Source: a bacterium
GTDB lineage: Bacteria; Eisenbacteria; RBG-16-71-46; CAIMUX01
DNA length: 64,000 nucleotides
Reading direction: 5' to 3'
NCBI GenBank assembly: GCA_030431975.1
Contig: JAUIHP010000002.1
Location: 186,001-250,000 of the forward strand
Shown here in pieces: positions 1 through 45,985 of this stretch. The position numbers and the translations under genes are program-made. The stretch's first letter is position 1; every line of letters begins with the position of its first letter. Below the pieces are notes generated by a model. That model was not told the DNA's origin, ran no database searches, and worked only from the letters and a program-made list of their open reading frames with translations.

Positions 1-1255
1 TCTTCTTCCGCTTCTTGTCTTTCCGGCTCCGCTTTCTCTTTGAGGAGTCATCGGACGCGGTGGAACGGCTTCCCCCTGCGATCGCAGGGTCTCGCGAAGT
101 ATCGGGCTGCACGTTTGGCAGCACGTTCGGCTGCACGTTCGGTTGTGCGTTCGGTTGTGCGTTCGGTTGTGCGTTCGGCTGCGTCCCCGGTTCCCCGCCG
201 GAATCCGTCGCATGCGAGTTCGTCCCAGACTCGTTTCCGCGCCTGGTCGCTTCGCCGTTCTGCGGGGCTCCGCTTCCCTTCTGATACGGGCTCGTCGGCG
301 ACTTCACGCTGAGATGAGCCCAACTGGTCTGCGTCACTTCGCGTTCTGGGTCGACAACTTCATGACGTTCCTGCGAGTCCCCATCGTCCTCCGAAATGAC
401 GGGAGGCCGTGTCGGTGGTGGGACCGCAGCACGAATCTTGGCCCCGGAACTCGCCTTGGAATCTGCCCAGATCGATCCCGGCTTGCTGCGCCCGCCCGGC
501 GCACGGGCGGAAGAGGGCGCCGGCGCCGCCGGGCGCGGCTTGTTGGACAAAGACTCCGCTCTGGCGCCGTCCGAACCGGTGACCGGTCCGATGGCGATGA
601 TTCCGAGGAGCGGATGGCCCGCGCCCTGAAGCTGTCGTGTACACGCCTCCAACTCGAACGGAGAGTGATCCCGGAAAGACGCAACGAAGGCCACGCCGTC
701 GAACGTCTTCTCACGAGGAAGGGCTGCACCCAGTTCTTCAGGGAGGGACTCCACCCAAAGAAAGGTCCAGTCCCCTCCAATCGACTCCTCGGGCGCTGAC
801 ATGGAACCGGAGCGGGGCACGACCAGTCGGACACCTTCCAGGTCGGTCGAAACGGCGACGTCGTTGGGACCGATTCGATCTCCCAATCGCTCCCGAGCAA
901 CTTTGGGAAGCGCGTAGGTCCGCGCACTTCCCTGCGGAGGAAGAAGCGCCCCGATCTGCGGTCCGCCAAGGAGGACCTCTCCACCGCCACGGGCCAATAA
1001 CTCGGCGATGCCGACAGCCCAGGGAAGTTGCTCCATGCCTCCATAGGGGGCTGCAAACCAAATGACGCTGTGTTGGGACGAGGATCCGAGATGGGCCGAG
1101 ATTCGGCTCCACGCGGAACCCGACGGGACGGGACCCGCGGCGCAGGCGGCAAGTCGCGTGTGCCGAACGAGCGCGCGCGCATCCGGCTCCGCCTGGCCCA
1201 GGAGTTCAAGTCCCAGGCGCTGGGCAGCGTCCTCAGCGGTTCGGAAGTAACTCAC
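1..1255 (-). CDS. Unknown protein, partial, overlapping selA
   Basis: The frame opens with GTG at 1255-1253, overlapping the selA stop (GTGA), and runs off the window edge without a stop, so the C-terminus is missing. Residues 1 to about 215 form an alpha/beta-looking region. It includes a stretch rich in Gly and Ala (GGMEQLPWAVGIAELLARGG) and a segment like FDGVAFVASF followed by HPLLGIIAIGP. This weakly recalls the C-terminal half of CpsD/MinD-type P-loop proteins, but I see no Walker A motif. The rest is a low-complexity tail with six 12-bp units encoding QPNA/QPNV-type tetrapeptides and then a Lys/Arg-rich stretch at the edge. In many genomes selB follows selA; this protein has no GTPase or SelB motifs. 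The four-base overlap implies translational coupling with selA. The function is unknown. Confidence 0.7.
   Translation of the reverse strand, partial: MSYFRTAEDAAQRLGLELLGQAEPDARALVRHTRLAACAAGPVPSGSAWSRISAHLGSSSQHSVIWFAAPYGGMEQLPWAVGIAELLARGGGEVLLGGPQIGALLPPQGSARTYALPKVARERLGDRIGPNDVAVSTDLEGVRLVVPRSGSMSAPEESIGGDWTFLWVESLPEELGAALPREKTFDGVAFVASFRDHSPFELEACTRQLQGAGHPLLGIIAIGPVTGSDGARAESLSNKPRPAAPAPSSARAPGGRSKPGSIWADSKASSGAKIRAAVPPPTRPPVISEDDGDSQERHEVVDPEREVTQTSWAHLSVKSPTSPYQKGSGAPQNGEATRRGNESGTNSHATDSGGEPGTQPNAQPNAQPNAQPNVQPNVLPNVQPDTSRDPAIAGGSRSTASDDSSKRKRSRKDKKRKK
107..178. repeat. Six 12-bp tandem units encoding QPN(A/V)
   Basis: Six consecutive 12-bp units of the form (c/t)(t/a)g(c/t)(a/g)cgtt(c/t)gg occupy 107-178. 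The three units at 143-178 are identical. Read on the minus strand they encode Gln-Pro-Asn-Ala/Val tetrapeptides inside the tail of the unknown protein downstream of selA. This is a coding minisatellite, not an intergenic repeat. Confidence 0.85.
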
Positions 1256-2682
1256 CGGAGTCCCTCCATCGCTGCGACGAGATCGTCCTCGTCTCCCTCC
1301 AGCAGGGTTCGGACATCCAGGAGGAACCGTCCTCCCTCGATCCGGCCGACGATGGAAGGGGTTCCTGTGCGCAGACGCAAAGACAGGTCATCAGGACGGA
1401 GCGGCCCCACCACGGACACCGCGCGTGATTCCAGTTCCTGTCCCGGAAGTGAGCCGCCGCCGACCTCGGCCACGCTTTTCACCACGTCTACCGTCCAATC
1501 CTGCCCCAGGGTGCTTCGAAGCCGATCTCTCAGCCGCATCGCTGCGTTCTCGAGAGTCGCGGGTTCCGCGGCCAACATCCGAACCAGGGGGACTTTACGA
1601 CGAAGCTCCTCCGGCGGCAGCAGGAACATCTCCAGAGTCCGTTCCAATGCGGCCAGGGCCGTTTTGTCGAGGCGAACGACCCGGGCGACCGGATGCGAAC
1701 GCAGTCGATCGATCCACGTCTTCTTCCCTACCAGGATTCCGCCCTGAGGGGCACCCAGGAGTTTGTCCCCGCTGAAGGCCGCAATGTCGGCGCCGGCCCG
1801 AAGTGAATCCTGAACCCGAGGCTCGCCGAACGTCAGTTCTCCGTGCTGGTCCAGGGCTCCGCTCCCCAGATCCTCGAAAAACGGAACGCCGTGTTCCCTT
1901 CCCAGGGCGGCCAGATCTTCGGAAGACGCCTCCTCGGTGAACCCGACCATCTTGAAATTGCTGGGGTGCACTTTGAGGATCAGCGCCGTATCCGGCCCGA
2001 TTCGGTCCGCGTAATCGGAAATGCGGGTGCGGTTTGTCGCGCCCACTTCAACCAAACGGACACCAGCGGCCTCCATGATGTCGGGCAACCGGAAGCTCCC
2101 CCCGATTTCGACGAGATGCGCTCGGGAGACCACGACTTCGCGCCCGCGGGCCAACGCGGAAAGAGTCAGAAAGACGGCGGCGGCGGTGTTGTGAACGGCG
2201 AACCCTGCCTCCGCGCCGGTCACCTTTGGAATCAGGTCCATGATGGGCCCGAGCCGGCTGCTGCGCTTTCCGGAGACCAGATCCATCTCGAGATTGCAGT
2301 AACCCGTCGCCGACTCCAGGTAGGCATCCCGCGCCGGGGGCGCAAGCGGCGCCCGGCCCAGGTTCGTGTGAATGAGGATGCCAGTCGCGTTGATGACCCG
2401 CCGGAGGACTCCATGATCGCGCTGAGTGGCTCGGTCCCCGATCCGTTGGCGCACCCAGTCCGTCCAGGACTCGCGGCCCTCGGCCGGGATCGTGGCCGCC
2501 TCCCCACGTGAAGCCGCCGTCCGCGCCGCGTCGAGCGTCTCGCGGGCTTCCGCCAAGGCGTCACGGATCCACGAGCGTAGGAGCACGCGCGGCACATCAT
2601 CCGCCAAGCCCTCTTCCTCGAGGAAGCGGTCGACGGAGGGAAGTTCACGGTACTGAGCCGCAATGCGATCGATATCGGTCAT
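1252..2682 (-). CDS. selA: L-seryl-tRNA(Sec) selenium transferase SelA
   Basis: SelA is the cytosolic PLP enzyme that converts Ser-tRNA(Sec) to Sec-tRNA(Sec) using selenophosphate. The 476-residue protein has the usual family length. It contains the N-terminal helical region, the NATGILIHTNLGRAPL signature near residue 100, and the PLP-lysine motif SGDKLLGAPQGG with Lys about 307. The ATG at 2682 fits the family N-terminus. The downstream gene overlaps its stop by four bases. Neither selB, selD nor selC is seen in this window. The presence of selA makes it plausible that in-frame TGA codons elsewhere in the genome are decoded as selenocysteine; two strong candidates occur at 39-42 kb. Confidence 0.95.
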   Translation of the reverse strand: MTDIDRIAAQYRELPSVDRFLEEEGLADDVPRVLLRSWIRDALAEARETLDAARTAASRGEAATIPAEGRESWTDWVRQRIGDRATQRDHGVLRRVINATGILIHTNLGRAPLAPPARDAYLESATGYCNLEMDLVSGKRSSRLGPIMDLIPKVTGAEAGFAVHNTAAAVFLTLSALARGREVVVSRAHLVEIGGSFRLPDIMEAAGVRLVEVGATNRTRISDYADRIGPDTALILKVHPSNFKMVGFTEEASSEDLAALGREHGVPFFEDLGSGALDQHGELTFGEPRVQDSLRAGADIAAFSGDKLLGAPQGGILVGKKTWIDRLRSHPVARVVRLDKTALAALERTLEMFLLPPEELRRKVPLVRMLAAEPATLENAAMRLRDRLRSTLGQDWTVDVVKSVAEVGGGSLPGQELESRAVSVVGPLRPDDLSLRLRTGTPSIVGRIEGGRFLLDVRTLLEGDEDDLVAAMEGLR

Positions 2683-23211: not shown

Positions 23212-23221
23212 TTTCATCATG

Positions 23222-23294
23222 TGGAGATGAGCGGAATCGAACCGCCGACCTCCTCGTTGCGAACGAGGCGCTCTCCCAACTGAGCTACATCCCC
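23222..23294 (-). tRNA. tRNA-Ala(CGC)
   Basis: Acceptor GGGGATG/CATCTCC, D-arm TAGCTCAGTTGGGAGAGC, anticodon stem CCTCG/CGAGG with loop TTCGCAA (anticodon CGC, reading GCG), T-loop GGTTCGATTCC. No CCA is encoded (the next bases are CAT). Confidence 0.94.
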
Positions 23295-23324
23295 AAACGG
23301 ACCGAAACCCGTCTTCTACGAATC

Positions 23325-23412
23325 TGGCGGAGAGAGAGGGATTCGAACCCTCGATAGGTTTCCCTATACACGCTTTCCAGGCGTGCTCCTTAAGCCACTC
23401 GGACACCTCTCC
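23325..23412 (-). tRNA. tRNA-Ser(GGA)
   Basis: Class II tRNA with a long variable arm. Acceptor GGAGAGG/TCTCTCC, anticodon stem CACGC/GCGTG with loop CTGGAAA (anticodon GGA, reading TCC/TCT), T-arm GAGGGTTCGAATCCCTC, encoded CCA. Confidence 0.95.
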
Positions 23413-23522
23413 GGCGAACTTTCGGCGCCCAGGCCACCGTAGCCTCGTCATCCGACCGCGCTGTCGGCGGTGGAATCAAAGAGAACCGTGATTCTAAGAA
23501 ACCCGGCACAACGGCTCAAGGT

Positions 23523-24110: not shown

Positions 24111-24160
24111 CGTATTCTACTCAGAACGAAGCGACCTGCAATCGGCGAACTCCGACTCCA

Positions 24161-24892
24161 CTACGAAGGCAGCTCACCGAGCAGTTCCATCATGACGGCC
24201 GCGGCGACTTCATCGATAGGCGGCGGACTCGGTGCGGAATCGAGCTTGTTCTCGACACGGGATGCCCGTTGCGATTCGGCGGCGTTGCCTCCCTGACGGA
24301 GTTGCTCGTTACCTGTGGTCGGACGATACGGCAGCGAGTCCTTCCGCTTGGCCTGATCCGCTCCCCAGGCGATCTGCCCCGATTTCCCGCTGTAGATGTA
24401 GAGACCGATACCAACGCGTGACCAGGACGTCCCTTCCTGCGTCGACTCCAGCTGGTACTCGGTCCAGTCGTTGACTTCAGCAAAGAGAAGGGCGTCAACA
24501 GCGATCGCCTCGGCGAGTTCCTTGGCCAGGAACTGATCGACGGTCTGATCATCCTTCCAGACCTTTTGGATCCGACTCAGGACGTCCGACTTCCCCGCCT
24601 TTTCCGCGCGGTCCCCGATCGTCTTCTCACCGATGACGATGAAGCGGTCCTGGTTTCCTCGGATTTGTCCGGAGACGATTCGCTCGGCGGCTTCCATCGA
24701 CTGGCCATCGGTGTTGGTGGCCCGAAGCCCGATGTAGGCCAGGCTCTTGATGTCCATCTCTTCCCACTGGTCGCTGATGTAGACCTGGGTCTTCTTGTCA
24801 CCCTGGCGGGTCTTCTTGTTTCCGCAACCGGTGTTCGCGGCCACGGCAAACGCCGCGATGCCGACCAGCAACCAAAATGCTCGTCGTCCCAT
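24161..24892 (-). CDS. Putative lipoprotein, unknown function
   Basis: From ATG at 24892 (AAGGAGG seven bases upstream) the 243-residue protein starts with MGRRAFWLLVGIAAFAV and a lipobox ending NTGC. The mature region has the layout of CsgG/LpoB/DUF799-type periplasmic lipoproteins: a first strand (SLAYIGLRATN), a stretch ending RFIVIGEKT, a strand ALLFAEVNDW, and a VGIGLYIYSGKSGQIAWGA motif. That resemblance is only by eye. The tail is Ser/Pro-rich and then helical. It sits between tadA and tRNA-Arg, with no informative neighbours. Confidence 0.75.
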   Translation of the reverse strand: MGRRAFWLLVGIAAFAVAANTGCGNKKTRQGDKKTQVYISDQWEEMDIKSLAYIGLRATNTDGQSMEAAERIVSGQIRGNQDRFIVIGEKTIGDRAEKAGKSDVLSRIQKVWKDDQTVDQFLAKELAEAIAVDALLFAEVNDWTEYQLESTQEGTSWSRVGIGLYIYSGKSGQIAWGADQAKRKDSLPYRPTTGNEQLRQGGNAAESQRASRVENKLDSAPSPPPIDEVAAAVMMELLGELPS

Positions 24893-25011
24893 GACGAATC
24901 CTCCTTGCAGAGCGCCACGACGGGCCGTGGCGCGACTCGGATCGATATTCATCCGGTAGATCCAGTTCACTCTACTACGAGGTTTGGCGGCGGGTTCGTG
25001 AAGAAAAGAAG

Positions 25012-25088
<77 letters not shown>

Positions 25089-25102
25089 TGATTCTCTGTA
25101 TG

Positions 25103-25190
25103 CGGAGAGGGGGGGATTCGAACCCCCGGAGAGCTATAAACCCTCAACACATTAGCAATGTGCCGCCTTAAGCCACTCGGCCACCTCTCC
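25103..25190 (-). tRNA. tRNA-Ser(GCT)
   Basis: Class II tRNA with acceptor GGAGAGG/CCTCTCC, anticodon stem GCACA/TGTGT with loop TTGCTAA (anticodon GCT, reading AGC/AGT), long variable arm and T-loop TTCGAAT. The 3' end reads G-CAT, so CCA is not encoded. Confidence 0.94.
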
Positions 25191-25205
25191 GACCAAATCC
25201 GATTC

Positions 25206-25291
25206 TGGCGGAGGGAGCAGGATTCGAACCCGCGTGGCTTTCACCAAACGGTTTTCAAGACCGCCGCCTTCAACCACTCGGCCATCCCTCC
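25206..25291 (-). tRNA. tRNA-Ser(TGA)
   Basis: Class II tRNA with acceptor GGAGGGA/TCCCTCC, anticodon stem and loop CGGT-CTTGAAA-ACCG (anticodon TGA, reading TCA), long variable arm, T-loop TTCGAAT and encoded CCA. With the GGA, CGA and GCT genes nearby it completes a full serine isoacceptor set. Confidence 0.95.
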
Positions 25292-32450: not shown

Positions 32451-32463
32451 TCAGCGGATTCGG
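32435..32463. repeat. 14-bp tandem duplication spanning a stop codon
   Basis: gtcagcggattcgg occurs at 32436-32449 and again at 32450-32463 with no spacer. The stop codon of the 1878-residue protein (tca at 32451-32453) is inside the second copy. Confidence 0.9.
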
Positions 32464-35400
32464 ACGAGTCGTTCCGCCGCCTCCCGGCCGTCCCAGCGGA
32501 GCCGGGCGAAGTAGATTCCCGAGGAAACACTGTGTCCACGGTTGGAGCGACCATCCCACTCCGCGACGTGAATCCCCGCTTCGACCTCGCTGTCGAGCAA
32601 CGTACGGACTCTGCGCCCGGATACGTCGAACACTTCGAGGCGGACAGCCCCGGTTCTGGGGATGGAAAAGCTCAGCGTCGCCTTGGCCGCAAACGGGTTG
32701 GGTAGGGACGGCCGCAACTCGAAACGAAGTGGAGCCAAACCCGATCGCGCGGTTTGCGGCCGCGAGTTGTCGAAATGACCATCGCTCGAGAGAACGACGA
32801 TCAGGTAGGCGTACCAGGCGCCCGCTTCGACCGTTTCGTCGACGAAGTCGTAGTCCCCAGGCCCGACGAACCGCTCCGCGACAGGAAGGAGTTCAAAGTC
32901 CTCGAGGTCCAGTTCCTCTTCCCCGCCCGGGCCTTCGACCTGTCGACGATAGATCAGGTACCGTGTGTCGCTACGGTCAGAGAAGCCTCGCCAACGCACG
33001 CGGACGCCACGCTCGTCCTCCGAGACCTGAAGTCCCACATCGACGATGGGCGTGACGTCGCCGACCAACGTGATCCGGCGGGGTTCGAGCATGGCCGTGG
33101 TGGCTGCGAAGGGCAGGAAGAGCCCTCCGATCTCGGCAAAGATGGCCCCGCGGGTCAGGCTCGGGTCACCTGGGGTGGCCTGACCGTCCACGATGATGAC
33201 CTGCCCGTCGCCGACCAGGAAAACGTCATGCGGCCGCGCGAACGCATTGTTGACCGCAGCCAGCTGTGGCGTGGCTCCGATCTCTTCCCGGAAGCTCCAA
33301 AGTGATCCGACCCCGCCTCCGCTCGGGGTGGCCGTCTGATCAAGCACGTAAACCGTCCCGTTGGGCGCCACGTCGATCGCGACCGGCGTTTCCCAGAACT
33401 CGGAGGTGGCCATCAGCTCCATGGACTCGGCTTCGAAGTCGATGGAGTACACGGCGCCGCGGCCTCCCTCTTCTCCATTCAGCTCCACATCGGAGTCCAA
33501 CAGAAGCCAACGCCCCGTAACCGGACTCTGGGCGATGTCTCGGAGCCGTACCCAGGTCGTATCGGACATGAGGACCGTACTCGTCCCCGACGTCGGTTCG
33601 ACGCGATAGAGTGCGCCTGGTCCGATCTGTGGATCGAACTCGAACGGGTCGGCCCAGGAATCCACGAGGATGAGGGAGCCGGAGTCGTAGGCATTGACCA
33701 CCTCGAGCTGCCCCCACGTCGAGTCTGCAACCGCGACCCGCCAGCTCTGATCGCTCGGATCGATCTCGTAGAGAGCGCCACGACCTCCCCCTTCCGGAAA
33801 AACGACCTGGTCGACGACGTAGAGGTTGGGTGTGCCGTCTCCCAGTGCGGCAATACCCACCGGGCGTCTCCAAGTCGGGTCGGACAGGTAGGGCGTCGTC
33901 GTTCCCGTTTGTTGCTGAACCTTGAGGACCGCTCCGGGACTGCGGCGAGTTTCGTAGGGATCGGCATCGCTGTCGACGACGTAGAAGTGACCAAGATCGA
34001 CCGCGACGAAGGTTGCGACTTTGAACTCGCGTTCGATCGTTCCCGCAACCGGGCCGCTGGCCTGTGGCCGAAACTCCAGGAGCTGACCCCGTGATCGAAT
34101 CGGATCGAGTTGGACCGAGTACGTCAGGTTCACAACCTCGCCGGAACCGATCGAACCCGTCCATCGAACGATGCCGTCATCGAGGTCGACCTCACCGAGG
34201 TCGGCATTCACCGTTTCGGGCAGGAGAACGACGGCCGCGTCCAGAGAGTCCACAAACGTCATCGCACCCGCGGCGGTCCCGATGTTCTCGAGACGAACCG
34301 AAATGTCCAGCTGGTCCGACGGCATAAGGGCGCCGCCGTCCTCATCGACGACTTCGTAGGACGTGAAATCCAAGAGGGAAGCCGGCAACTGGGCCAGGTC
34401 GGAAAGCACCGAGAAGGAGTCCGAAATGGCATACTCCGTCACCGTGCGGCCGACCGGGTTGTATTCAAAGACCAGGCCCGGCGATCCCGTCTGCCCGGAC
34501 GACGAGGCCGCCTGATCCAGGATGAGGAGGCTTCCGCCATTCTGCGGATAGGTCCGGTACGGACGTCGGAAGGAACCTGCGGCAAGGTATGTCTCGATCG
34601 TGCCGACGTCCGGATCGAAGGTGAAGAGTCCCCCAGATCCGTTTCCGCCTTGCTGTATCGCGACAAAGTCCGTGATGACGAGCGTGCCGTCCGCGAGTTC
34701 CGTAATCCCGGTGGGTTCCCGAATCTCCGGGAACTGCCATGCGTCGACGATGGCCCCGGTCGACGTGTTCAGTTCGAAAATGGTCGCGGTGTTCCCGCCG
34801 ACGCCGCCGACATCAGCTTGCCGGTCGGTCACGAAAAGGCGTCCGGATCCCGAGAAGATTCCCTCGGAAAGAAAGCGGAAGTCCGACTGTTCGGAGAAGA
34901 CCTCGACTTCGCCTTCGCCTCCGGGGAGACGGTAGATCATCCCTTTCCCGTCCGCATCGGGGTCCGAGTCGCCGTCGCGATCGAGGATGTAGAGGTCCCC
35001 GGCCGGACTCCAGAAGAGATCGACGGGCGTGAGAAGTCCCGCATCCGATCCGACCAACGGGGTCACGGATCCCGTTGACGTCTGCAGCCGGAAAACCCTT
35101 CCCGGATCGGATCCCAGTCGATCCGCGATGAGGAGATCCCCGTCTCCCGTCAGTTCCAGTGCTGCAGGGTCCTCGATCGGGAAGCCGGTGAGGGTGACCT
35201 CCGCGTCCTGCGATCGACCGCCGACCGAAAAGATGGTACCCGCACCGATACCGATGTCCGTCGGATCGGCGGACTCGTCGGAAAGGATGAGTGTCCCCGC
35301 CCGAAACGGAGCTGCCACCCGACGACGTCCTTCCCGTTCGATCAATGCGCCCCCGCCTTCCGCGGTGGCCCGAACAAACACATCCCCTCCGAAACCGATT

Positions 35401-38087
35401 CCTTCCCGAACCCGAACCGAACCGGCAACGCTGAGTGTGTCGCCGGAGTCGAGACGCCCCAACCACGTCGCACGCCGGATATCCGGGGCAGAAAGCAGCT
35501 GTCCGAACTCCGCAGATCCGGTCAGGTACTCGAGCCCTTCGGAGAACTCGAGATCCAGATAGAGTTCGGGCACGGCCTGGGTCGACGGGTTGAAGACGCG
35601 GAGGCTGTAGGTCAGCGTGTCTCCGATACTGACGTTGACGGCGCCGCCGACCAGACTCACGGTACTGAGAACCGGAGCGGCCGCGCTGAGCCCGGAGGGA
35701 CCATCCGGCCGGCGAACACCCGGAGAGGCCGCAGCGATCGAGAACCCGCCGGTTTCGAGGTCGATCCGAAAAACCGCTCCCGGATTCGTCACGTCCAGAC
35801 GCAGCGGGTTCGCGTCCCGGTCCGTGACGTACAGGACTTTGTTCTCGGCGAGGAAGACATCGGCAGGGTCGACGAGTAGGGCGTTTCGACTCGTAATGCC
35901 GTAAAACGTCTCTTCACCCCGCACCACCTGAAAGACACCACCATTGTCGATGACCGGATCTTCGTTCTCGTCTTCGAAGAACGTCGGATCCGTGATGTAG
36001 GCCGTGCCCTCCGCATCGATGGCCAGCCCGGTCGGGTCCCGGAACCAGTTGTCCCGAAGCGCGCGCCTCGACAAAACCTCTTCGACCGGATCGAACTCCC
36101 ACAGATCCCCGATCCCATCCGTCCCCTTGACGTCGACGGCTACGATCACTCCGTCGGGCGCGACGGCAACATCGAGCGGCTCTCGCATTCTGGCGTCGCT
36201 GAATACCGTGGTCAGAGTTCCGTCCGTCATCGAGACCGAGAATACGGCGCCGGGACCGAAGTCGCGGGAAAGAATATCCGGTTCGTAGTCCAGCTCGAAT
36301 GGGTTTGCTTCCCGGTCCACCAACAGAAGTCCCCCATCCGCGGACAAGGAAATGCCGACGGGGTCGACAGGGGCGTCGTCGATCTCCTTCGACCAAAGCA
36401 ACTGGAAGTCTGCCGAGCTTCGATCGTAGAGAAAGATCGCACCCTCTCCGAATCCCGGCTCGGGCTCGGCGCCCGCATCCAGAATGGCGAGCCGACCGTC
36501 TTCCAGGAACGCGGTGTCGACCGGTTGAACGAGTGGAGCACCCAAGTGGATCAGCGTAGGGGCGGTGTCCTCGGGGTTGACCGCATAGATGATCCCGTTG
36601 TCACCGTCGGAAAGCCGGGTCTGATCGACGAATACAATGGTGCCGGGTGTGAAGGACTCGCCCACTTCGGACTCGAAGGTGAATTCCTCGAAGATCGGAT
36701 CGACCCCAATGTACACACGATCCTCGATGTCCTGCCCGACCTCGACGTCTCGCGCGACCCGCAACTGATAGCGGACCGTTTCTTCTCCGAAGAGATCCAG
36801 ATCTCCCTTCCACCGCAGGATCCGATTCGTCGGGTCGTACGAGAAGGTGCCCGTCCCCGTGGAATCGGTTCCGGCAATGAAGTTGAGGCCGGCGTCGAGA
36901 GTGTCACTGAGGGTCACACCGAGCGGAGGCTCGGTCCCGTTCGAACGAATGGTCGCGCGAACCGTCAACACGTTGCCGCGCTCAACAGCACCCGGCGTTT
37001 CGTCGACCCACTCGACTGTGGAATCGTCGACGTCCGGACCTCCGGCGAAACTCAGGGAACGCGGATTCGCCGTGGACGGGGGATTGTAGATGAAGGTGCG
37101 AAGGCGGGTCGGAAGGTTGAACTGAAACAAGGCGCCGGTGGTCAGGGGCGAGTTGTCCGGATTCGCCGTCCGGTCCAGCACCCAAAGCTGCCCTTCCTCC
37201 CCCAAGGTCAGGTCGATCGGATCGACGAAGAGAGGATCGTCCAAGAGCGTGGTCAACGCTCCGGACTCTCGGTCGAGGCGGAAGACCGCACCATTCCCGT
37301 CCTCGAAACCACTGGGATCGGCTTCCGGATCCGCGATCGCATAGTCGCCGTCCGGCAGCAGAATGATCGACTCCGGCGTGACGACCGGGTCGTCCGGGCC
37401 AAACGCTTTGACGACCGCCACGTCGCCGGAGTTCGCGTCCACCCTGAAGACGGCTCCCGGAATCCCCCCTTGCCCCAAAGGATCGGCGAGTCGATCGAGA
37501 ATGACATAGGAACCGTCTGAATCGAGGGCCATGCTGATGGGCTGACGAAAGGCCGAAGTCGAGGCGATGACGTCGAAGTTCCCCGTCTCCGGATCTCCCC
37601 GAAAGAGACCTCCCGGACGCGTTCCGAGTCCGAAGGGATCGGAGTCCGCATCGAGGACGAGAATGCGTCCAAAGTCGTCGACGGCCAAGTCGGTTGGGTT
37701 GAAGAAGAGCGCCGAACTGAGGACCGGCTCGGCGACGGCCTGCCGCAGGACGTCGCTCGGATTGACGAGGAAGACGGCACCGGTTTCCCTGCCCAACCCA
37801 AGCGGGTCCGCAGCTTCGTCCAGTACGTAGAGTCGTCGGTCCGGAAGCAGCACCGTCTCGACGGGCCGGACGAATCCATCCGCGATCGAGGCAATGGCGG
37901 CTGCGGGAGCAAGGTACCGGATCGCGAACACGGCCCCGCGGTCCTCACCGACTCGCAACGGGTCGGCCGAGTCGTCAACGAGTAGAAGATTCGGGACCCG
38001 GACTTCGTCCGCCCGGGCGGTAGCTCCCAGGACGAAGATCAGGATCCCGACCCAAACCAGTCGGACGAAGAAATGTGCTCGGGTCAT
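32451..38087 (-). CDS. Giant secreted repeat protein with FlgD-like C-terminus
   Basis: The 1878-residue protein has a signal peptide ending at about residue 26 (ATARA-DE). Long arrays follow of 45-60-residue repeats of the form (L/I)LDxxADPxGxGxxxGAVFRVDxxTG, likely beta-propeller blades. Three DUF11-like adhesion/Ig domains interrupt them, at about residues 350-480, 800-930 and 1235-1355. The C-terminus has an Fn3-like segment, then a FlgD/type IX-sorting-like domain from about 1795 (PSLPNPFAAKATLSF, DVSGRRVRTLLD, SGIYFARL). The Asp-rich turns may bind calcium. A cell-surface or secreted role is likely; the ligand is unknown. It follows the PLP-enzyme gene by 11 bases. Confidence 0.85.
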   Translation of the reverse strand: MTRAHFFVRLVWVGILIFVLGATARADEVRVPNLLLVDDSADPLRVGEDRGAVFAIRYLAPAAAIASIADGFVRPVETVLLPDRRLYVLDEAADPLGLGRETGAVFLVNPSDVLRQAVAEPVLSSALFFNPTDLAVDDFGRILVLDADSDPFGLGTRPGGLFRGDPETGNFDVIASTSAFRQPISMALDSDGSYVILDRLADPLGQGGIPGAVFRVDANSGDVAVVKAFGPDDPVVTPESIILLPDGDYAIADPEADPSGFEDGNGAVFRLDRESGALTTLLDDPLFVDPIDLTLGEEGQLWVLDRTANPDNSPLTTGALFQFNLPTRLRTFIYNPPSTANPRSLSFAGGPDVDDSTVEWVDETPGAVERGNVLTVRATIRSNGTEPPLGVTLSDTLDAGLNFIAGTDSTGTGTFSYDPTNRILRWKGDLDLFGEETVRYQLRVARDVEVGQDIEDRVYIGVDPIFEEFTFESEVGESFTPGTIVFVDQTRLSDGDNGIIYAVNPEDTAPTLIHLGAPLVQPVDTAFLEDGRLAILDAGAEPEPGFGEGAIFLYDRSSADFQLLWSKEIDDAPVDPVGISLSADGGLLLVDREANPFELDYEPDILSRDFGPGAVFSVSMTDGTLTTVFSDARMREPLDVAVAPDGVIVAVDVKGTDGIGDLWEFDPVEEVLSRRALRDNWFRDPTGLAIDAEGTAYITDPTFFEDENEDPVIDNGGVFQVVRGEETFYGITSRNALLVDPADVFLAENKVLYVTDRDANPLRLDVTNPGAVFRIDLETGGFSIAAASPGVRRPDGPSGLSAAAPVLSTVSLVGGAVNVSIGDTLTYSLRVFNPSTQAVPELYLDLEFSEGLEYLTGSAEFGQLLSAPDIRRATWLGRLDSGDTLSVAGSVRVREGIGFGGDVFVRATAEGGGALIEREGRRRVAAPFRAGTLILSDESADPTDIGIGAGTIFSVGGRSQDAEVTLTGFPIEDPAALELTGDGDLLIADRLGSDPGRVFRLQTSTGSVTPLVGSDAGLLTPVDLFWSPAGDLYILDRDGDSDPDADGKGMIYRLPGGEGEVEVFSEQSDFRFLSEGIFSGSGRLFVTDRQADVGGVGGNTATIFELNTSTGAIVDAWQFPEIREPTGITELADGTLVITDFVAIQQGGNGSGGLFTFDPDVGTIETYLAAGSFRRPYRTYPQNGGSLLILDQAASSSGQTGSPGLVFEYNPVGRTVTEYAISDSFSVLSDLAQLPASLLDFTSYEVVDEDGGALMPSDQLDISVRLENIGTAAGAMTFVDSLDAAVVLLPETVNADLGEVDLDDGIVRWTGSIGSGEVVNLTYSVQLDPIRSRGQLLEFRPQASGPVAGTIEREFKVATFVAVDLGHFYVVDSDADPYETRRSPGAVLKVQQQTGTTTPYLSDPTWRRPVGIAALGDGTPNLYVVDQVVFPEGGGRGALYEIDPSDQSWRVAVADSTWGQLEVVNAYDSGSLILVDSWADPFEFDPQIGPGALYRVEPTSGTSTVLMSDTTWVRLRDIAQSPVTGRWLLLDSDVELNGEEGGRGAVYSIDFEAESMELMATSEFWETPVAIDVAPNGTVYVLDQTATPSGGGVGSLWSFREEIGATPQLAAVNNAFARPHDVFLVGDGQVIIVDGQATPGDPSLTRGAIFAEIGGLFLPFAATTAMLEPRRITLVGDVTPIVDVGLQVSEDERGVRVRWRGFSDRSDTRYLIYRRQVEGPGGEEELDLEDFELLPVAERFVGPGDYDFVDETVEAGAWYAYLIVVLSSDGHFDNSRPQTARSGLAPLRFELRPSLPNPFAAKATLSFSIPRTGAVRLEVFDVSGRRVRTLLDSEVEAGIHVAEWDGRSNRGHSVSSGIYFARLRWDGREAAERLVRIR

Positions 38088-38098
38088 GGGCTCCGTGC

Positions 38099-39232
38099 TC
38101 AGGCCAGGGCCTGCCTCAAGTCCTCAACCAGATCATCGGCGTCCTCGATCCCAACGGACAGCCGAAGAAGAGAGTCCGTGAAACCGATCCGCTCACGCTC
38201 CTCCTTGGGGACGGCGGCATGGGTCATGCTTGACGGATGGCAGAGCAGGGACTCGATTCCGCCCAGGCTTTCGGCCAGGGTGAAGACCCGAACCCGCTTC
38301 GCAAACTCCTGGGCCGCTCCGAAACTCTCAAGATCGAAGGAGACCATTCCGCCCGCCCCCCGCGTCTGCCTGCGGCTGATCTCATATCCGGAGTGAGTTT
38401 CCAGCCCCGGGTAGAAAACACGCTTCACCTTGTTCTGGCTCTGCAGGAACTCGACGACCTTGCGCGCGTTCTCCTCATGCCGCGGCATGCGGACTGCGAG
38501 GGTCTTCACACCCCGCAGTGCGAGGAAACAGTCCTGCGGACCGGGAACCGCACCTTCTGCGTTCTGGACGAAACGGAGCCGTTCGAGGATCTCGGCATTA
38601 CGGCTGGCCGCGATTCCCCCGACGACATCCGCATGTCCGCCCAGGTACTTGGTCGTGGAGTGCATGACGACGTCGGCTCCGAGTTCCAGAGGAGACTGAA
38701 AGAATGGCGTGAGGAACGTGTTGTCGACGACGAGGAATGCCCCCTGATCGTGAGTCAGGTCCGCAACCGCAGCGATGTCGCTGACGTTCATCAGCGGATT
38801 GGTTGGGGTTTCGACGAAGACCATTCGTGTGGCGGGTCGCATCGCCTCCCGCAGTGCGTCGAGATCCGAGGTGTCGACATAGTCGAATTCCAGTCCGAGC
38901 CGCCGGTAGATCTGCTCGAAGAGACGATAGGTCCCACCGTACATGTTGTTGCCGGCGACGACGTGGTCACCCGCCTTCAGGTTCTTGAGAATGGCCGAGG
39001 TCGTGGCCAGGCCGGACGAGAAAGCCACCGCTTCGTCCGCCTTTTCGAGGACAGCGAGGCATCGCTCCCACGCGGCGCGGGTCGGATTGTGCGTCCGCGC
39101 GTACTCGTAGCCGCGGTGCTGACCAATCGCATCCTGCTTGTACGTCGAAGTCTGATAGATCGGGACCGAAATCGCTCCCGTCTCCTTGTCCGGTGATTGA
39201 CCGCCGTGAATGGCGTCGGTACCGATGCCCAT
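38099..39232 (-). CDS. Cys/Met-metabolism PLP enzyme (cystathionine gamma-synthase/lyase type)
   Basis: The 377-residue enzyme belongs to the trans-sulfuration PLP family. It has YQTSTYKQD, SRTHNPTRAAWE-like YARTHNPTR, FSSGLATTSA, VFVETPTNPLM, VVDNTFLTPFFQSPLELGADVVMHSTTKYLGGH with the PLP lysine in STTKYLGG, and GGIESLLCHPSSMTH. Gamma-synthase, gamma-lyase and beta-lyase activities cannot be separated by eye. The start at 39232 falls after the upstream stop and is preceded by GAGGGG. It sits directly downstream of the selenoprotein candidates, so a link to sulfur or selenium amino-acid metabolism is tempting but unproven. Confidence 0.92.
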   Translation of the reverse strand: MGIGTDAIHGGQSPDKETGAISVPIYQTSTYKQDAIGQHRGYEYARTHNPTRAAWERCLAVLEKADEAVAFSSGLATTSAILKNLKAGDHVVAGNNMYGGTYRLFEQIYRRLGLEFDYVDTSDLDALREAMRPATRMVFVETPTNPLMNVSDIAAVADLTHDQGAFLVVDNTFLTPFFQSPLELGADVVMHSTTKYLGGHADVVGGIAASRNAEILERLRFVQNAEGAVPGPQDCFLALRGVKTLAVRMPRHEENARKVVEFLQSQNKVKRVFYPGLETHSGYEISRRQTRGAGGMVSFDLESFGAAQEFAKRVRVFTLAESLGGIESLLCHPSSMTHAAVPKEERERIGFTDSLLRLSVGIEDADDLVEDLRQALA

Positions 39233-39254: not shown

Positions 39255-40631
39255 CTACTTGTCGTGGCGCACCAATTCGTAGTAAGTCCCGAAGTCCCAA
39301 TCCTTGGCAAACTCGCCGCTATGGCATCCCGTACACGTCGCTTCGGCCATCGGTGTCGAGCCGCCGGTCCGGACGTGTTCCGTTCCGGGACCATGACAAG
39401 CTTCACACTGGACGTTCGTCAAGTCCGGCTTGTTGTTTCCGGCCACGTATCCACCCGTTTGCTCCCACCCCGTAACATGGCAGCCGGTGCATTCCGGGGT
39501 CCGCTCCATCCCGTGGTCAGAACTCAACGTTGCGAACGCACCTGCGTGCGGAGTCGTCTTCCAGTGGTCGTATTCTGCCGCGTGGCAACGCCGGCAGGTC
39601 TCCGCGCCCAGATACTTCACCGTCGCGAGGGCGGCCTGCTCCTGCCGGTCCGCCTCCACCGTGCCGGTTCGACGCAGCTCCTTGGAGATATCATCGGCCT
39701 CTTCCGCGCGGGCCAACATCTCCGGCTGCTTCGGTATTGGATCGAGCAGGGGCTTGTTGAACGAGCCGGAGTCGATGACGTTTCCATCCGGGTCGACGAT
39801 GACCGTGACCGAACCCATGTACTGCCCTCGGGATCCGGTCTGGTTGACGAGGGTTTCCCCGACCCATTGAGCTTCCGGCTTGAAGGAGGGGCGGTTCCCG
39901 TAGAGAGCGACATCCACCCCGGGAATCCGAGTCAGAAGATCATTCGCGGTACGCGATGACATCTGCGCCATCATGACCACCAGATCGACCTGCGGACGCA
40001 GCTCTTCGATCATTTCCTCCATCGCTTCTTCTGCGTCCTGGAACCGGACTCCTGACTCGACGGGCACGGCCGCGCCGGCAAACTCGGTGCCACCGATCAG
40101 ACCGAACAGACCGACGCGAACGCCGTCGACATCCAGAATGAGGTGTCGCTGCCAAAGAGGAATTCGCTCCCCCTCGACCTCACGATAGAGATTGGAGGAA
40201 ACGACCGGAATCCGACCATCTGCGACAAGCTCGTTGAAGAGGTCCCACTCCTCGATCTCGCGCGGACCGGGAGTTGTCGCATCGACGCCCATGCGCGCCA
40301 TTTCCGTCCAGAGAAACTGCGAGCGCTGCTTCTTGGAAAAGTCCTGGGTACTGATGAAGTTGCCCAGGTCCAGATGGAGGTGTGGGGTCCGCGATGCGTT
40401 GAGTGAATCGATGAGGGCAGCCCGCCGGGCCAGCCCGCCTTTACGTCCGCTCTTTCACCCACACTCCAACAATTCGCCCTGAACAGACCCGAAAGATACG
40501 AGGACGACCTCGGCGTTCGAGGGTCGCTTACCGGAGGAGCCCCCGGAAAACATCGGACCGGCGCATCCCCACGCCAAAGCGACCCACGGTGCGATAAGAA
40601 GGGCGATCACCCTCCATCTTGGTGCTTGCAC
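39255..40631 (-). CDS. Candidate selenoprotein: 5'-nucleotidase-like domain fused to four-haem cytochrome
   Basis: Reading the in-frame TGA at 40457-40455 as selenocysteine joins an N-terminal lipoprotein leader to a long downstream frame: 458 residues with Sec at about 59. Order: signal peptide (VIALLIAPWVALAWGC); first strand VVLVSFGSVQGELLECG-Sec; KSGRKGGLARRA; a degenerate metallophosphoesterase/5'-nucleotidase-like domain to about 310 (LHLDLGNF, TTPGPREI, PVVSSNL, VDVALYGNRP, VIVDPDGNVID); then CRRCH, CTGCH, CEACH, CTGCH as in c554-type cytochromes. The usual phosphoesterase metal ligands (DxH, NHE) are absent. GTG at 40631 has GAGGAG six bases upstream; ATG at 40637 and TTG at 40658 are alternatives. 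Without Sec decoding it would be two fragments, 40455-40631 and 39255-40301. Confidence 0.85.
40418..40432 (-). promoter_or_regulatory. Candidate bacterial SECIS hairpin 1
   Basis: Starting 22 bases after the TGA, the minus strand can form a 6-bp stem: two wobble pairs (U-G, G-U) around GCCC-GGC-GGGC. The loop begins with G, as bacterial SECIS loops require. The distance and small G-containing loop fit the loose bacterial SECIS model. Confidence 0.6.
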
Positions 40632-40768
40632 GAGCATCTCCTCTGAAAATCGGCTCAAAGGTTCAGTCTACCAGCCTCGGTCCGAAGGCCACAATCGGGA
40701 CGACGAGCAAAGGCCGGGCCGCGATGGCCCGACCTTGCTGTGATACCGGCTACCGTCCGAGTCGGAGT

Positions 40769-41785
40769 CTACTCATTCGACTCTTCCGACGACTCGTCCG
40801 TCAGAGTCCCCCGACGGACGTTCGCCTTCTCCTCGGTGACCTTCTTCATCTCGTCCTCGTGGGCGGCCACGAGGTCAGCGATGTCCGGACGCTCAGGTAC
40901 GTTTTCCGCCATCTTCATGTTCTTGGAGCCCCAATCGATGACATTACCCTCCGGGTCCACGATCATGACGAGGTGTCCCAGGTACTGCCCACGCGTCCCC
41001 GTCTGGTTGACGACAGCGTGCCCGACCTTGGAACAACTCTGAACCCACGAAGCCAGGTTGCCGTAGAGCGCGGCATCGATGCCATCCAACTCTTCGAGCA
41101 GCCGGTTCGTATCCGGAGTCGTCATTTGGGACATCAGGACCACGAGGTCCGCCTCGTCCTGAAGTTGCGGGACCAGTTCCTGCGCCGTCTTGAACGGATC
41201 TTCGAAGATGACTTTGACCTCATCCGGAATCCGCGCACTGCTGAACTGGCTTCCGCCCATCAGAGCGAAAAGCGCGACCTTCACGCCGTTCTTCTCGATG
41301 ATCACATAGCGTTCACCGAGCGGCTTTTCTTCCCCGTTCTCAACGTACGCCAGGTTCGAGGAGACGAACGGGATCGATCCCTCGTCCCGGAACTCCGTGA
41401 GCAGATCCCAATACTGCAGTTCCCGGGGACCCGGGGTGCACGCATCGAGCTCGAACTCGTTCATCATGTCCCAGATAAATCGCGTCGTCGGCTCGTCGAC
41501 GTGAGCACGATTGCTCGCGAAGTTGCCGAGATCGACGTGAATGAACGGGACGTTCTCGTTTCTCAGTGAATCAACATATGTCGCCCGCCGGGCGAGTCCG
41601 CCTTTACGGCCGGACTTTCACCCACAGGGCGCGACTTCGCCGTGAAGCGAGCCGAATGAAATGAGAGAAACATCGGCGTTGCTCAAGCGCTTGTCCCCTT
41701 GCTGGGGGGTGCTGGCACAGCCGACGACGAAAGCGGCAAAGAGGCCGAGGGCCCCGACCGCGGACATCAAACGAGCAGCGTTCAT
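40769..41785 (-). CDS. Candidate selenoprotein: 5'-nucleotidase-like lipoprotein
   Basis: The TGA at 41620-41618 lies in the frame of a lipoprotein with strong start signals: ATG at 41785, GGAGGAGAG upstream, signal peptide MNAARLMSAVGALGLFAAF and lipobox VVGC. With the TGA read as Sec the protein has 338 residues and Sec at 56. The context is SLHGEVAPCG-Sec-KSGRKGGLARRATYVDSL, followed by a domain paralogous to the upstream-numbered copy (IHVDLGNF, CTPGPRELQYWDLL, PFVSSNLAYVENG, IDAALYGNLASW, GTRGQYLGHLVMIVDPEG). It ends before any cytochrome domain, with a short charged tail. Without Sec decoding it would be a 55-residue peptide plus an orphan fragment, 40769-41467. The two paralogues lie in tandem, 137 bases apart. 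Confidence 0.85.
41581..41595 (-). promoter_or_regulatory. Candidate bacterial SECIS hairpin 2
   Basis: The same core GCCC-GGC-GGGC begins exactly 24 bases after the TGA. Here the two flanking pairs are U-A and C-G instead of the wobble pairs in the other gene, so the 6-bp stem is retained by paired third-position and first-position changes. Confidence 0.65.
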
Positions 41786-41911: not shown

Positions 41912-44900
41912 TTAGTTCTGACTCTTGTACTCGACCTCGGGGATGTCGGTAATGTAGATCCGGAACAGGTAGTTCCCCGAGGACCGCCTCTCAAATCGGA
42001 ACTGCCAGCAGTGGAGGCTCCGCTCCAGGGAGAAGGAGTGGGAAATGAAGTCTTTCTCCGCCAGATCGTAATACGCGCTCGAGGTCACCCGCCAGTTCGC
42101 GGTTGGAGTGAATCCCAGGGACGCGTTCAGGCGGTTGTCCTTGCTGTCGGAACCGCGTCGCCCGCTGTAGCTGTGGGACAGGCGGAGATTCCACGGGATC
42201 GACGCCCCGCCCGACTGTTCGAGCTCCCGGTTTCCGATGTCGGTTCCTTTGAGTTCCGCCTGACCGAACTCACCGTACTCCAATCCGTCCGTCTCCGTGC
42301 TGTCGGACGCGGCCTTGCGCTGGAACATCGAGCTCGTGATCGAGAGATTGGTCCGCACGCTGTAGTTGGTGGCTACCCACTTGTAGGGATCGACAGTGAA
42401 GGAGTAGCTGGAATCGAACGTGCGGAACGGTCGGAACTGAACGGTGTTGCTGATCGAACTCCACGGATCCTCGTCTGCCAGGAAGTCGTAGCTGGTCGAG
42501 CTGTTGACCGAAACCACGTTCTCCTTCTTCACGACCTGCTCGCCCAACTGCCACTTCGTGTGGATGCTTTGGCCCACGGAAAGGTTGAGTCGCGCCGACT
42601 TCCTTCCAGACAACCCGATGCCCCCGACACTGGGGAAAGTGGACTGGTCCTCGAGCAAGACCGTCGTCGAATCGTTGATCACCTGGAATTCGTCATAAGT
42701 GAGACTTTCGAACTCCGGAGAGTAGCTGACACCGACGCTGGGGTTGATGACGTGCCGAAGACCGACCAGGGGCCCGACCTCCCAGGGAAGCGTTCCGTAG
42801 AGATTGTTTCTGGCCGTAAGTGAGGACGTCCAGGTAGCTCCAACCTGATTCTTCCGACCCCGGTTGTCTTCACGGAACCAGGCGACTCGCCCCGAGATCG
42901 AGGGCGAGACCGTGAGGTAGGGTCCCAGATTGCGATTGTCCGTCAGGGACCAGTCGCTGGCGGCGGCGGAGTTCTCTTCCTTCATCGCCGGGACGAAGGT
43001 CGAGTCCTCGACCGTAGCGAACGACTTGCGGAAGACGCGCCGGTACTGAAGTGAGTTTCTGAAGTAGGTGGTGGCCAGGAAAGGAAGCCGACCTCCCCTG
43101 CCGATCTCGTCCGGCACCTGACCGAGAGCAATCTGACTCATGCTCAATCGAACCGAGGGGAAGTTTTCGATGCGCTCGAGCCCACCCCCCGCCTGTTCAT
43201 CCAGGTACTGCGTACGCGAGGCGTCCGCACTCAAGGAAAGCCCGAGGAAGTCCCACGAGTTCTGGTAGGCCACGGAGGAATCGAGCTGCCGGTTCAGCCG
43301 CTCGTCCACTCCCGCGCCAATGTCGTAGTCTTCGATGAAGTTCTTGTCACTCCGGAAATCCGCCCGGACGCGAAGGTCGGATCGGTCGGACAGTTCCTGG
43401 ACATGCGAACCGTCAACGCTCCAGCGCCGCCGTCCTCCATTGTTACTACTTTCATCCAGATAGCTGGCCGAGAGGTTTCCATTGAGTAGATAGCGTTTTC
43501 GGTATCGAAACTCTCCGCTCAACTCGACCTCGGGCCCCTCATCGAAGTAGTCCATCCATGCCTTGGCGTCCATGTAGTCATTGATGGCCCAGTAGTAGCC
43601 GAGGTTCTCAATGAAGCGGCCTCGGTTGCTGAAACCGAATTCGATGTCCGGGAACAGGAAGCCGGAATTGCGTCCCTTGTTGATGGGGAAGAAGTAGTAG
43701 GGAATGGCGAATATCGGGATGTTCCGAATGTGAAGCACGACCGGGCGCGCCACCGCCTTGTCGTCGAGGATCAGCTTCATTCGCTTCGAATGGAAGTGAT
43801 AGTGCGGCGGGTCGTGCGAGCAGGTCGTGTAGTCCCCTTCCTGAACGAGGAGGATGTCATCTTCGAGTTTCTTGATCGCCTTGCCGTAGTAGAAGCCGCC
43901 GTCGTACTCCGTCTTGCCCTGGTAGACCATTCCTTCTTTGGAGTCCGTCCGGTAGGTCATGCGCTCGCCGATTACCTCGCTGCCGTCGTCGCGCAAGGTG
44001 GGTGCGCCCTCCGCAATGACCAGATCCTGATCTGCGAGAAAGTCGATCGACTCCGACTCCAACTCGTTTTGTCCGTAGTCCAGCTTTCCGGCGCCGCGGA
44101 TCGAAAGCTGATCGTCCGCCGTGTGAAAGCGAATCGTATCTCCGGAATAAACGACGATCTCGTCGTAGAGAGCTTCGAAGGGAGTGTCCAGGCTGTCGGG
44201 AAGTTCGAGCGTCCGGTTACTTCGGAAGTAGTCCAAACGCGGATCGATGGGCTTGCGCTCGACGTTCATCGCAGGTCGGGGCGGGGCGAACTCGTCGGGA
44301 ATCCGCGACCGTTCATCCCGGTACGCGGCGGCCTCGAGGTCGGCCAGGGAGTCGACGACGCTTTGCTGGGGTGAAAGCCAGTTCGAGTCCGGCGCCGCTT
44401 CGGTCACGATGGACTCGACATCCCGACGCGGCATTCGGGCACGGATTCTCGGCCCCTCGTCGATCTCCTCCAATCGTTCGCCGTGTTCGCGCTGTCCTTG
44501 TTGTTCGCGTTGTTCGCCGACCGAGTCCGGGTCCGGGTCTGAGTCCGGGTCCGGGTCCGGGTCCGGGTCCGGGTCTGACTCTGAGTCCGAGTTTGAGTCC
44601 GAGTTTGAGTCCGAGTTTGAGTCCGAGTCCGAGTCCGAGCCCGAATCCGTTTCCGAATCCGTCTCCGGGTCCGACCCCGAGCCCATTTCCGACTCTGCCC
44701 CTGCACCCGGGAGGTCCCCGAAGACCCGGCCTCCGCCGGCCGGGGAAATGGAGTCGACGTAGGCGGGGTCTCTCAACTTTCGCAGGGATGCGGGACTCGG
44801 ATAGCGGTACTCGCCCGACGCTTGTTCGATGAAGTCGACTCGATCGACTCCGCCGTCTCTCAGCGTGAGCTCGATTCGGCGCGCGTTCGTCAGGTTCTTG

Positions 44901-45985
44901 CCCGTCCCTCGCCTCATCTCGTCGAGATTGGGGGTGTAAAGGCTGTGGGCCTGCCCGGTCACATCGAGCCCGGTGACTCGCCCGCCGGAAATCACCGCGT
45001 CGAGGGTGTCCCCGAGGACGAACTGCGTCTCACCGGGGTTCTCCCGCGACCGGTAGTCCACGCTGACGTTGCCGTAGGCCCGCAGTACATCGTCCGACCC
45101 GGAGCGGAGCCGGATGTCCATCGTGTCCGCCCGAATCTCGCCTTCCAGATCCCAGGCGACGGGGTTACCGGTCAGGAGTGTTCGATTCCGAACGAGTTCA
45201 AAGATGGCCTCTTCCCCGATAGCCTGAACGTTTCCGCGCTGGATGCGAACGTTCCCATAAGCCACTCCCTGCCGACGGGGCTCGTTCATGGACAGGGTAT
45301 CCGCCCAAACCGTCAGATCCTGCTCCGGAGTGAGGCCGGGCCGGAAGAGCCATGGATTGCCGTAGATCCAGACGTCTCCGGTCGTGCGATCGTAGTGGGC
45401 GTGTTCGCCGTTGACCCAGGTCGAGTCGGCAAGCAGCAGAACGCGGACATCTCCATGCGCCTCACCGCGGCCGGTGCCGTTTTCGAACCGGACCCGATCG
45501 GCCCAGATGATGCGGGTGGTGTCGGCGATTTCCGGCCGACCGCGCAAATCGACCACCTCGTAACGACGGTCATAGGTCAGTTCGCGGGCGCGAAACTTTC
45601 CCTCCGGTCCGTTCCCCCGAACCTGTCCGGCCATGTCCAGAACGCGATCCAGTCTGCGGTAGACGCCCTGGTTGGCGGTGACGCGCCCCAGGCTGTCTTC
45701 GATTTCGACACTTCCGATGAGGACAAGAAGCGTCCGGTCGGAGTTGATCCGTCCACGTAGTGCCCGAACCCGAAGATCGCCGTGGCGAATGTTGGGACGC
45801 TCGATCTCACTTCCTGTTTCCCGCGAGCCCCACAGGCTGTCCCCGAGAACGACCCAAGGCTCCAGACTGACGGGCCCTTGGGCCTGAGGATCCGAGGCCT
45901 GAGCGAAGAGAAGAAGTAGGAAGAGGAGCGCCCCCGCACCGACGGGAAGATGTCGAAGAGAGACGTTTTTGCGACGGACGATCAC
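41912..45985 (-). CDS. lptD: LPS-assembly protein LptD-like
   Basis: LptD is the outer-membrane barrel that inserts lipopolysaccharide. The 1357-residue protein has a signal sequence. An N-terminal OstA/LptA-like beta region (about 60-400) follows with repeated strands such as GDVWIYGNPWLF and YGNVRIQRGNVQAIG. At about 435-490 lies a remarkable acidic linker of Asp-Ser and Asp-Pro dipeptides. A second OstA-like stretch (YSGDTIRFHTADDQLS) precedes the C-terminal barrel with IPIFAIPYYFFPINKGRNSGFLFP, typical of LptD, and alternating aromatic strands to the end. It is much longer than the enterobacterial protein. GTG at 45985 overlaps the ROK kinase stop (GTGA), with GGGAG upstream. Confidence 0.9.
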   Translation of the reverse strand: MIVRRKNVSLRHLPVGAGALLFLLLLFAQASDPQAQGPVSLEPWVVLGDSLWGSRETGSEIERPNIRHGDLRVRALRGRINSDRTLLVLIGSVEIEDSLGRVTANQGVYRRLDRVLDMAGQVRGNGPEGKFRARELTYDRRYEVVDLRGRPEIADTTRIIWADRVRFENGTGRGEAHGDVRVLLLADSTWVNGEHAHYDRTTGDVWIYGNPWLFRPGLTPEQDLTVWADTLSMNEPRRQGVAYGNVRIQRGNVQAIGEEAIFELVRNRTLLTGNPVAWDLEGEIRADTMDIRLRSGSDDVLRAYGNVSVDYRSRENPGETQFVLGDTLDAVISGGRVTGLDVTGQAHSLYTPNLDEMRRGTGKNLTNARRIELTLRDGGVDRVDFIEQASGEYRYPSPASLRKLRDPAYVDSISPAGGGRVFGDLPGAGAESEMGSGSDPETDSETDSGSDSDSDSNSDSNSDSNSDSESDPDPDPDPDPDSDPDPDSVGEQREQQGQREHGERLEEIDEGPRIRARMPRRDVESIVTEAAPDSNWLSPQQSVVDSLADLEAAAYRDERSRIPDEFAPPRPAMNVERKPIDPRLDYFRSNRTLELPDSLDTPFEALYDEIVVYSGDTIRFHTADDQLSIRGAGKLDYGQNELESESIDFLADQDLVIAEGAPTLRDDGSEVIGERMTYRTDSKEGMVYQGKTEYDGGFYYGKAIKKLEDDILLVQEGDYTTCSHDPPHYHFHSKRMKLILDDKAVARPVVLHIRNIPIFAIPYYFFPINKGRNSGFLFPDIEFGFSNRGRFIENLGYYWAINDYMDAKAWMDYFDEGPEVELSGEFRYRKRYLLNGNLSASYLDESSNNGGRRRWSVDGSHVQELSDRSDLRVRADFRSDKNFIEDYDIGAGVDERLNRQLDSSVAYQNSWDFLGLSLSADASRTQYLDEQAGGGLERIENFPSVRLSMSQIALGQVPDEIGRGGRLPFLATTYFRNSLQYRRVFRKSFATVEDSTFVPAMKEENSAAASDWSLTDNRNLGPYLTVSPSISGRVAWFREDNRGRKNQVGATWTSSLTARNNLYGTLPWEVGPLVGLRHVINPSVGVSYSPEFESLTYDEFQVINDSTTVLLEDQSTFPSVGGIGLSGRKSARLNLSVGQSIHTKWQLGEQVVKKENVVSVNSSTSYDFLADEDPWSSISNTVQFRPFRTFDSSYSFTVDPYKWVATNYSVRTNLSITSSMFQRKAASDSTETDGLEYGEFGQAELKGTDIGNRELEQSGGASIPWNLRLSHSYSGRRGSDSKDNRLNASLGFTPTANWRVTSSAYYDLAEKDFISHSFSLERSLHCWQFRFERRSSGNYLFRIYITDIPEVEYKSQN
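44521..44680. repeat. Hexanucleotide tandem repeat in lptD
   Basis: About 25 units of gggtcc, gggtct, gagtcc or gagttt run through 44521-44680. On the minus strand they encode alternating Asp with Ser, Pro, Glu or Asn (the acidic linker). The frame is preserved because the unit is six bases. Confidence 0.9.

Follow-up and report, generated by a model that had tools for sequence, protein, structure and literature searches.

A predicted selenocysteine codon in a UshA-like tetrahaem protein gene and in its haem-less tandem neighbour in an Eisenbacteria genome

The UshA-like family and the two window genes

UshA-like proteins with a CxU motif are listed as a selenoprotein family in a 2008 paper on ocean data (PMC2398784), and the family model NF041198 is listed with the CxU motif in PMC13188914. 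NF041198 (UshA_like_PCGU, UshA-like (seleno)protein) has a curated equivalog cut-off of 275 bits, and its profile spans a selenocysteine (Sec) domain at about positions 20-270 and a c554 tetrahaem domain at about 345-518. Two genes related to this model lie in tandem in the window, which is the whole stretch of 64,000 nucleotides that was analysed. One is a fused Sec/haem gene and the other is a paralogue:

39255..40637, minus strand: gene of a UshA-like tetrahaem Sec protein, 460 aa with TGA translated as U (NF041198 3.2e-62, Cytochrome_C554 1e-17)
40455-40457, minus strand: predicted Sec codon TGA of this gene, in ..LLECGU-KSGRKGGLARRA.., with Sec or Cys in all homologues
39738..40502, minus strand: 5'-nucleotidase/SoxB-like domain with a degenerate metal site
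39258..39620, minus strand: c554-like tetrahaem domain, from motif positions, PF13435 and the 1bvb match
40769..41785, minus strand: tandem UshA-like Sec lipoprotein paralogue with no haem motifs, 338 aa from ATG 41785, lipobox VVGC (NF041198 2.9e-35)
41618-41620, minus strand: second predicted Sec codon TGA, in PCGU-KSGRKGGLARRA, of which CGU-KSGRKGGLARRA is common to both tandem copies

If TGA is Sec, the fused gene is an open frame of 460 codons from ATG 40637 to TAG 39255-39257, with GTG 40631 (which has a better-spaced AGAGGAG) and TTG 40658 as alternative starts. The Sec would be residue 61, and 399 codons run on past the TGA. Four CXXCH sites are found in the protein (39582-39596, 39477-39491, 39393-39407 and 39321-39335), and its C-terminal domain matches Pfam Cytochrome_C554 (PF13435) at 1e-17. 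A first-pass annotation of this DNA had described an in-frame TGA at 40455-40457, some 400 further codons and four CXXCH sites, and the Sec translation bears this out. It had also described a lipoprotein leader ending in Cys-Gly-TGA. That part does not stand: the likely lipobox Cys, in AWG-C, lies 36 residues ahead of the Sec codon, and Cys-Gly-Sec is the start of the folded domain. AWGC is atypical as a lipobox, and the fused protein is probably exported and lipid-anchored. Apart from the lipobox Cys, the mature N-domain has Cys 59 as its sole further Cys.

The paralogue adjoins the fused gene upstream, contains no CXXCH site and has a good lipobox motif in VVGC. Its in-frame TGA was absent from the first-pass annotation. 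The window pair clusters with a copy from genome G002 in a quick N-domain tree (support 90), so that the haem-less copy looks, from sequence, like a local duplicate.

The two window proteins score 210.8 bits (fused) and 121.8 bits (haem-less) against NF041198. Both scores are under the cut-off, so the proteins are taken as divergent homologues and not as equivalogs. Both carry Cys-Gly-(Sec/Cys) followed by GG-x-x-RR, as ECGUKSGRKGGLARRA in the fused protein and PCGUKSGRKGGLARRA in the paralogue. The fused copy also aligns to profile positions 357-518, the C-terminal c554-like part, which the paralogue is without. Their assignment to the UshA-like (seleno)protein family is made with high confidence.

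The first-pass annotation had suggested that a Sec domain fused to a multihaem cytochrome would be a new selenoprotein architecture. Literature searches found no paper discussing the haem domain of a UshA-like selenoprotein, and none joining selenoproteins and Eisenbacteria; the scores under the cut-off could also be counted in favour of novelty. Against it, NF041198 covers both domains, so the Sec/haem fusion is a known form of the family, and the UshA-like CxU family was already listed. Fused copies above the cut-off occur in 13 of 47 genomes of the phylum, and a fused protein of Syntrophaceae reaches 318 bits, again above the cut-off. Fused forms were seen in Krumholzibacteriota, Acidobacteriota, Gemmatimonadota, Myxococcota, Thermodesulfobacteriota, Rokubacteria and Pseudomonadota, and those seen in Nitrosomonas communis and Gammaproteobacteria carry Cys. 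A first-time fusion is very improbable and was rejected on the coverage of NF041198. The TGA is almost certainly read as Sec, in an architecture that is not new.

The TGA codon in homologues and in the host genome

The first-pass annotation had proposed counting Cys against TGA at this position in homologues. A contig scan with a single window protein as query gave no relatives, and the 44-row alignment offered no stretch conserved enough to scan with; with a closer alignment the scan gave at least 450 relatives. The phylum set comprised 40 loci, with the two window copies counted in. Its 44 homologues have TGA at the Sec codon in 36 cases and Cys in eight, under a search pattern that permitted only U or C at the site. 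The wider loci gave the same picture. Across 80 of them, a looser pattern also permitted Ser and Ala, and the haem-bearing copies show U or C only. Loci missing the looser pattern were read directly; they have U or C wherever the stretch reaches the site, and CTU and CNC occur as variants. Since Sec or Cys is the sole choice in every homologue that reaches the site, the TGA is not a matter of chance.

This comparison bears on whether a sequencing or assembly error produced the TGA, or whether the gene is a pseudogene cut by a stop. The host genome is a draft assembly (6.19 Mb in 59 contigs, 97% complete), and point errors occur in such data. The same TGA is nonetheless present in the tandem paralogue, in 34 further copies from the phylum and in many from other phyla, and past it the frame retains both its conserved residues and the four haem sites. 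An error or pseudogene is scarcely credible, and was rejected because the TGA recurs in independent genomes.

The quick N-domain tree implies at least seven changes between Sec and Cys and at least four changes in haem presence. A Cys copy often stands beside a Sec copy (G011, G017, G019, G022, G026 and G029). Tandem Sec and Cys copies in single loci (L067, L074, L076, L078, L080 and L081) arose several times, and their Cys copies are without the SECIS core described below. On the same tree, a second Sec tetrahaem copy of G001 (L050:4448-5725) is very divergent and sits on a long branch.

The machinery for Sec was sought in the host genome. The window itself holds one of its genes, which the first-pass annotation had correctly noticed:

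1252..2682, minus strand: selA, L-seryl-tRNA(Sec) selenium transferase (TIGR00474, 493.7 bits at G000:C10:187264-188652, which is window 1264-2652)

A search for selB, selC and selD in the same genome had also been proposed, and selB, selD and a tRNA-Sec with anticodon TCA are all present. The genome therefore encodes SelA, SelB, SelD and tRNA-Sec, the set expected of a bacterium with selenoproteins. Its selD carries an in-frame TGA of its own (L017, G000:C52:182266-183189), so SelD is itself likely a selenoprotein. Within the relatives set of 20 genomes, 17 have selB. Elsewhere in the window, six tRNA genes, four of them for Ser, are clustered beside a small SRP RNA (23053-25291, minus strand).

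The frame would stay open whatever residue goes in, and this leaves room for TGA encoding another amino acid by reassignment (Trp or Gly, for example) or being read through occasionally without Sec. The sole alternative at the site, however, is Cys, not Trp or Gly, and tRNA-Sec and selA, selB and selD are present. Most ordinary genes near the fused gene end in TGA as a normal stop, which indicates that the code is not reassigned. Reassignment was rejected on these three grounds, and together with readthrough it is highly improbable.

A SECIS-like element was then compared across the copies:

40415..40436, minus strand: predicted SECIS-like hairpin of the fused gene, GGGC-U-GGCCC-GGC-GGGCU-GCCC with a bulged U, its loop beginning 28 nt past TGA
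41581..41595, minus strand: predicted SECIS-like hairpin core of the paralogue, UCGCCC-GGC-GGGCGA

The core, GCC CGG [C/A]GG GC (GCCCGGCGGGC in the window gene), spans the codons of Ala-Arg-Arg-Ala, and its loop lies 25 or 28 nt past TGA. It is present in 35 of 36 Sec copies (the 36th has ACC CGG CGG GCC) and in none of the eight Cys copies, for a Fisher value of 5e-8 over sequences that are not independent. The residues that the Cys copies encode there are nearly identical, yet these copies lack the core; its chance occurrence is about 5.5% per copy under the window's codon usage. The pair (8,20) is compensatory (C-G, G-C, G-U, U-A and U-G) and is paired in 36/36 Sec copies; none of 2000 shuffles did as well. 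Folding the hairpins as single sequences gave nothing significant (z 0.31 for the fused gene, z -1.80 for the paralogue), and no Rfam family reached its gathering threshold in the SECIS region. The conserved core and the covariation thus point to a SECIS-like hairpin shortly past the UGA, by a comparative route in which the shared codons also encode the conserved ARR residues. Sec copies of Acidobacteriota, Myxococcota and others do not have the exact Eisenbacteria core, so the core would be the form that the signal takes in this lineage. Complete Sec machinery, the tandem paralogue, Sec/Cys exchange and the SECIS core together strongly support Sec decoding.

Fold, metal site and possible chemistry

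The structure model has a pLDDT of 89.9, and its best PDB matches are 5'-nucleotidases. With the family profile, the matches are 5'-nucleotidases, SoxB and cytochrome c554 (1bvb). The metal ligands of the family were compared with those of two genuine 5'-nucleotidases from this phylum, over the motifs NDxH, GD, GNH, xSH and GHxH. The di-metal ligand set was not found in the family: at the columns for the Asn and His of GNH and for the second GHxH His, the common residues no longer include these ligands, and the His of NDxH is rarely kept. Judged by sequence position, the Sec would be near the old active site, several residues past the former NDxH motif and in the loop just after it.

The N-domain may nevertheless still function as a periplasmic nucleotidase or as a SoxB-like hydrolase, with Sec as a metal ligand or structural residue and the haems serving another function. 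Its kinship to 5'-nucleotidases and SoxB, in both fold and sequence, is in keeping with this, and some members of the family keep one Asp and some of the His ligands. Across the family, however, other residues stand in for the Asn and His of GNH and for the second GHxH His, and Sec and Cys swap freely, as they do in redox enzymes. Such a hydrolase is unlikely. Since the di-metal site is lost family-wide, phosphoesterase activity of the N-domain is likewise judged unlikely.

The preferred reading is a redox one. The N-domain is a fold of the 5'-nucleotidase/SoxB type stripped of its di-metal ligands, with a Sec, usually in Cys-Gly-Sec, placed after the former NDxH. In this reading, the selenol of the Sec may be the redox-active centre of catalysis. 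Its partner would often be the -2 Cys and, in one clade, might be a Cys standing where a metal-binding His used to be. The site could oxidise or reduce a thiol, low-valent sulfur or a similar substrate outside the cytoplasm, and electrons could pass to or from the haems of the c554-like module. The haem-less Sec paralogue would probably work beside the haem copy, with that copy or another cytochrome as its partner. A Sec redox mechanism joined to haems in the envelope is given an even chance.

The first-pass annotation had the Cys-Gly-Sec pair exchanging electrons with the haems, and this is plausible. It cannot hold everywhere in that form, because five Sec homologues do not have the -2 Cys and because haem-less Sec copies exist; the latter also mean that some members need no haem transfer in cis. 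Three copies without the -2 Cys, G007, G008 and G010, form one clade and have a Cys at the xSH metal-His column, which was found in no other copy. This suggests, short of proof, one evolutionary event in which the partner of the Sec moved. By locus, the Sec copies with VGU or TGU in place of the -2 Cys motif and a Cys at the former metal-His position are L061:4608-6104, L063:4889-6283 and L064:2216-3601, whereas the motif is AGU in L122 and L124, which retain the His.

The genes on either side of the pair were compared by tblastn, because long shadow frames in the GC-rich DNA disturbed gene clustering:

41912..45985, minus strand: lptD, syntenic, upstream of the family genes (PF19838 4e-60)
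38099..39232, minus strand: Cys/Met metabolism PLP enzyme of the cystathionine gamma-synthase type, downstream (PF01053 1.3e-150)

In the window, as in many Eisenbacteria, the family gene comes after lptD, and lptD is also nearby in loci of Krumholzibacteriota, UBP1 and Gemmatimonadota. Ten loci have an enzyme of the cystathionine gamma-synthase type close to the family gene. This neighbourhood shows an old, stable locus, and no function is read from it. LptD needs disulfides, and a functional link to lptD or to the PLP enzyme was considered; adjacency alone was held to be weak. A protein of 1878 aa encoded in the same gene run (32451-38087, minus strand) combines NHL repeats and DUF11/DUF7927 with an FlgD-like Ig domain at its C-terminus.

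The statement as a whole, that the TGA is Sec in an exported UshA-like tetrahaem protein of the NF041198 family with a redox role, is considered probable on the sequence evidence, with the weight of that judgement towards the identity of the protein. A broader proposal is more tentative and somewhat doubtful: that a dead metallophosphoesterase fold became an extracytoplasmic redox enzyme that depends on selenium and is connected to a tetrahaem module, that the repeated Sec/Cys or haem/haem-less tandem pairs of Eisenbacteria are two-component systems, and that the partner Cys of the Sec can shift from -2 to a former metal-ligand position. For this widespread UshA-like selenoprotein family, the metal-site loss, the Sec/Cys position common to all members and the natural Sec and Cys tandems in one genome provide handles. 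Eisenbacteria, in turn, are an uncultured phylum in which alignments directly show one conserved SECIS core.

Comparison with known systems

NF041198 and the window proteins have the same domain order, the CG(U/C)..GGLARR motif, Sec/Cys exchange and a c554 domain within one model. The window differs in having a neighbour copy without haem motifs, and its fused copy has Glu, not Pro, ahead of Cys-Gly-Sec. The N-domain is akin in fold and sequence to 5'-nucleotidase/UshA/CD73 and to the SoxB thiosulfohydrolase, whose di-metal ligands are lost here. In 5'-nucleotidases the C-domain binds the nucleotide, and the haem domain takes that place in the UshA-like fused protein. That haem domain is homologous to the tetrahaem cytochrome c554 of Nitrosomonas (PF13435, PDB 1bvb) and is here the C-terminal module of a Sec protein.

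The COG0737 UshA-like CxU selenoprotein (PMC2398784, PMC13188914) has the same CxU motif and belongs to the same family; the passages located on it make no mention of a haem domain. UshA-like (seleno)protein family 2 (NF049981) has a related Sec-containing UshA-like domain, which the window matches weakly (30 bits against a cut-off of 140). Its listed motif is CxxU (PMC13188914), whereas the window proteins have CxU. ExtKL (NF040886), to which the window protein has a trace match (E 0.0065), is already listed as a multihaem cytochrome (seleno)protein (PMC13188914), so that the combination of Sec and haems is itself not new.
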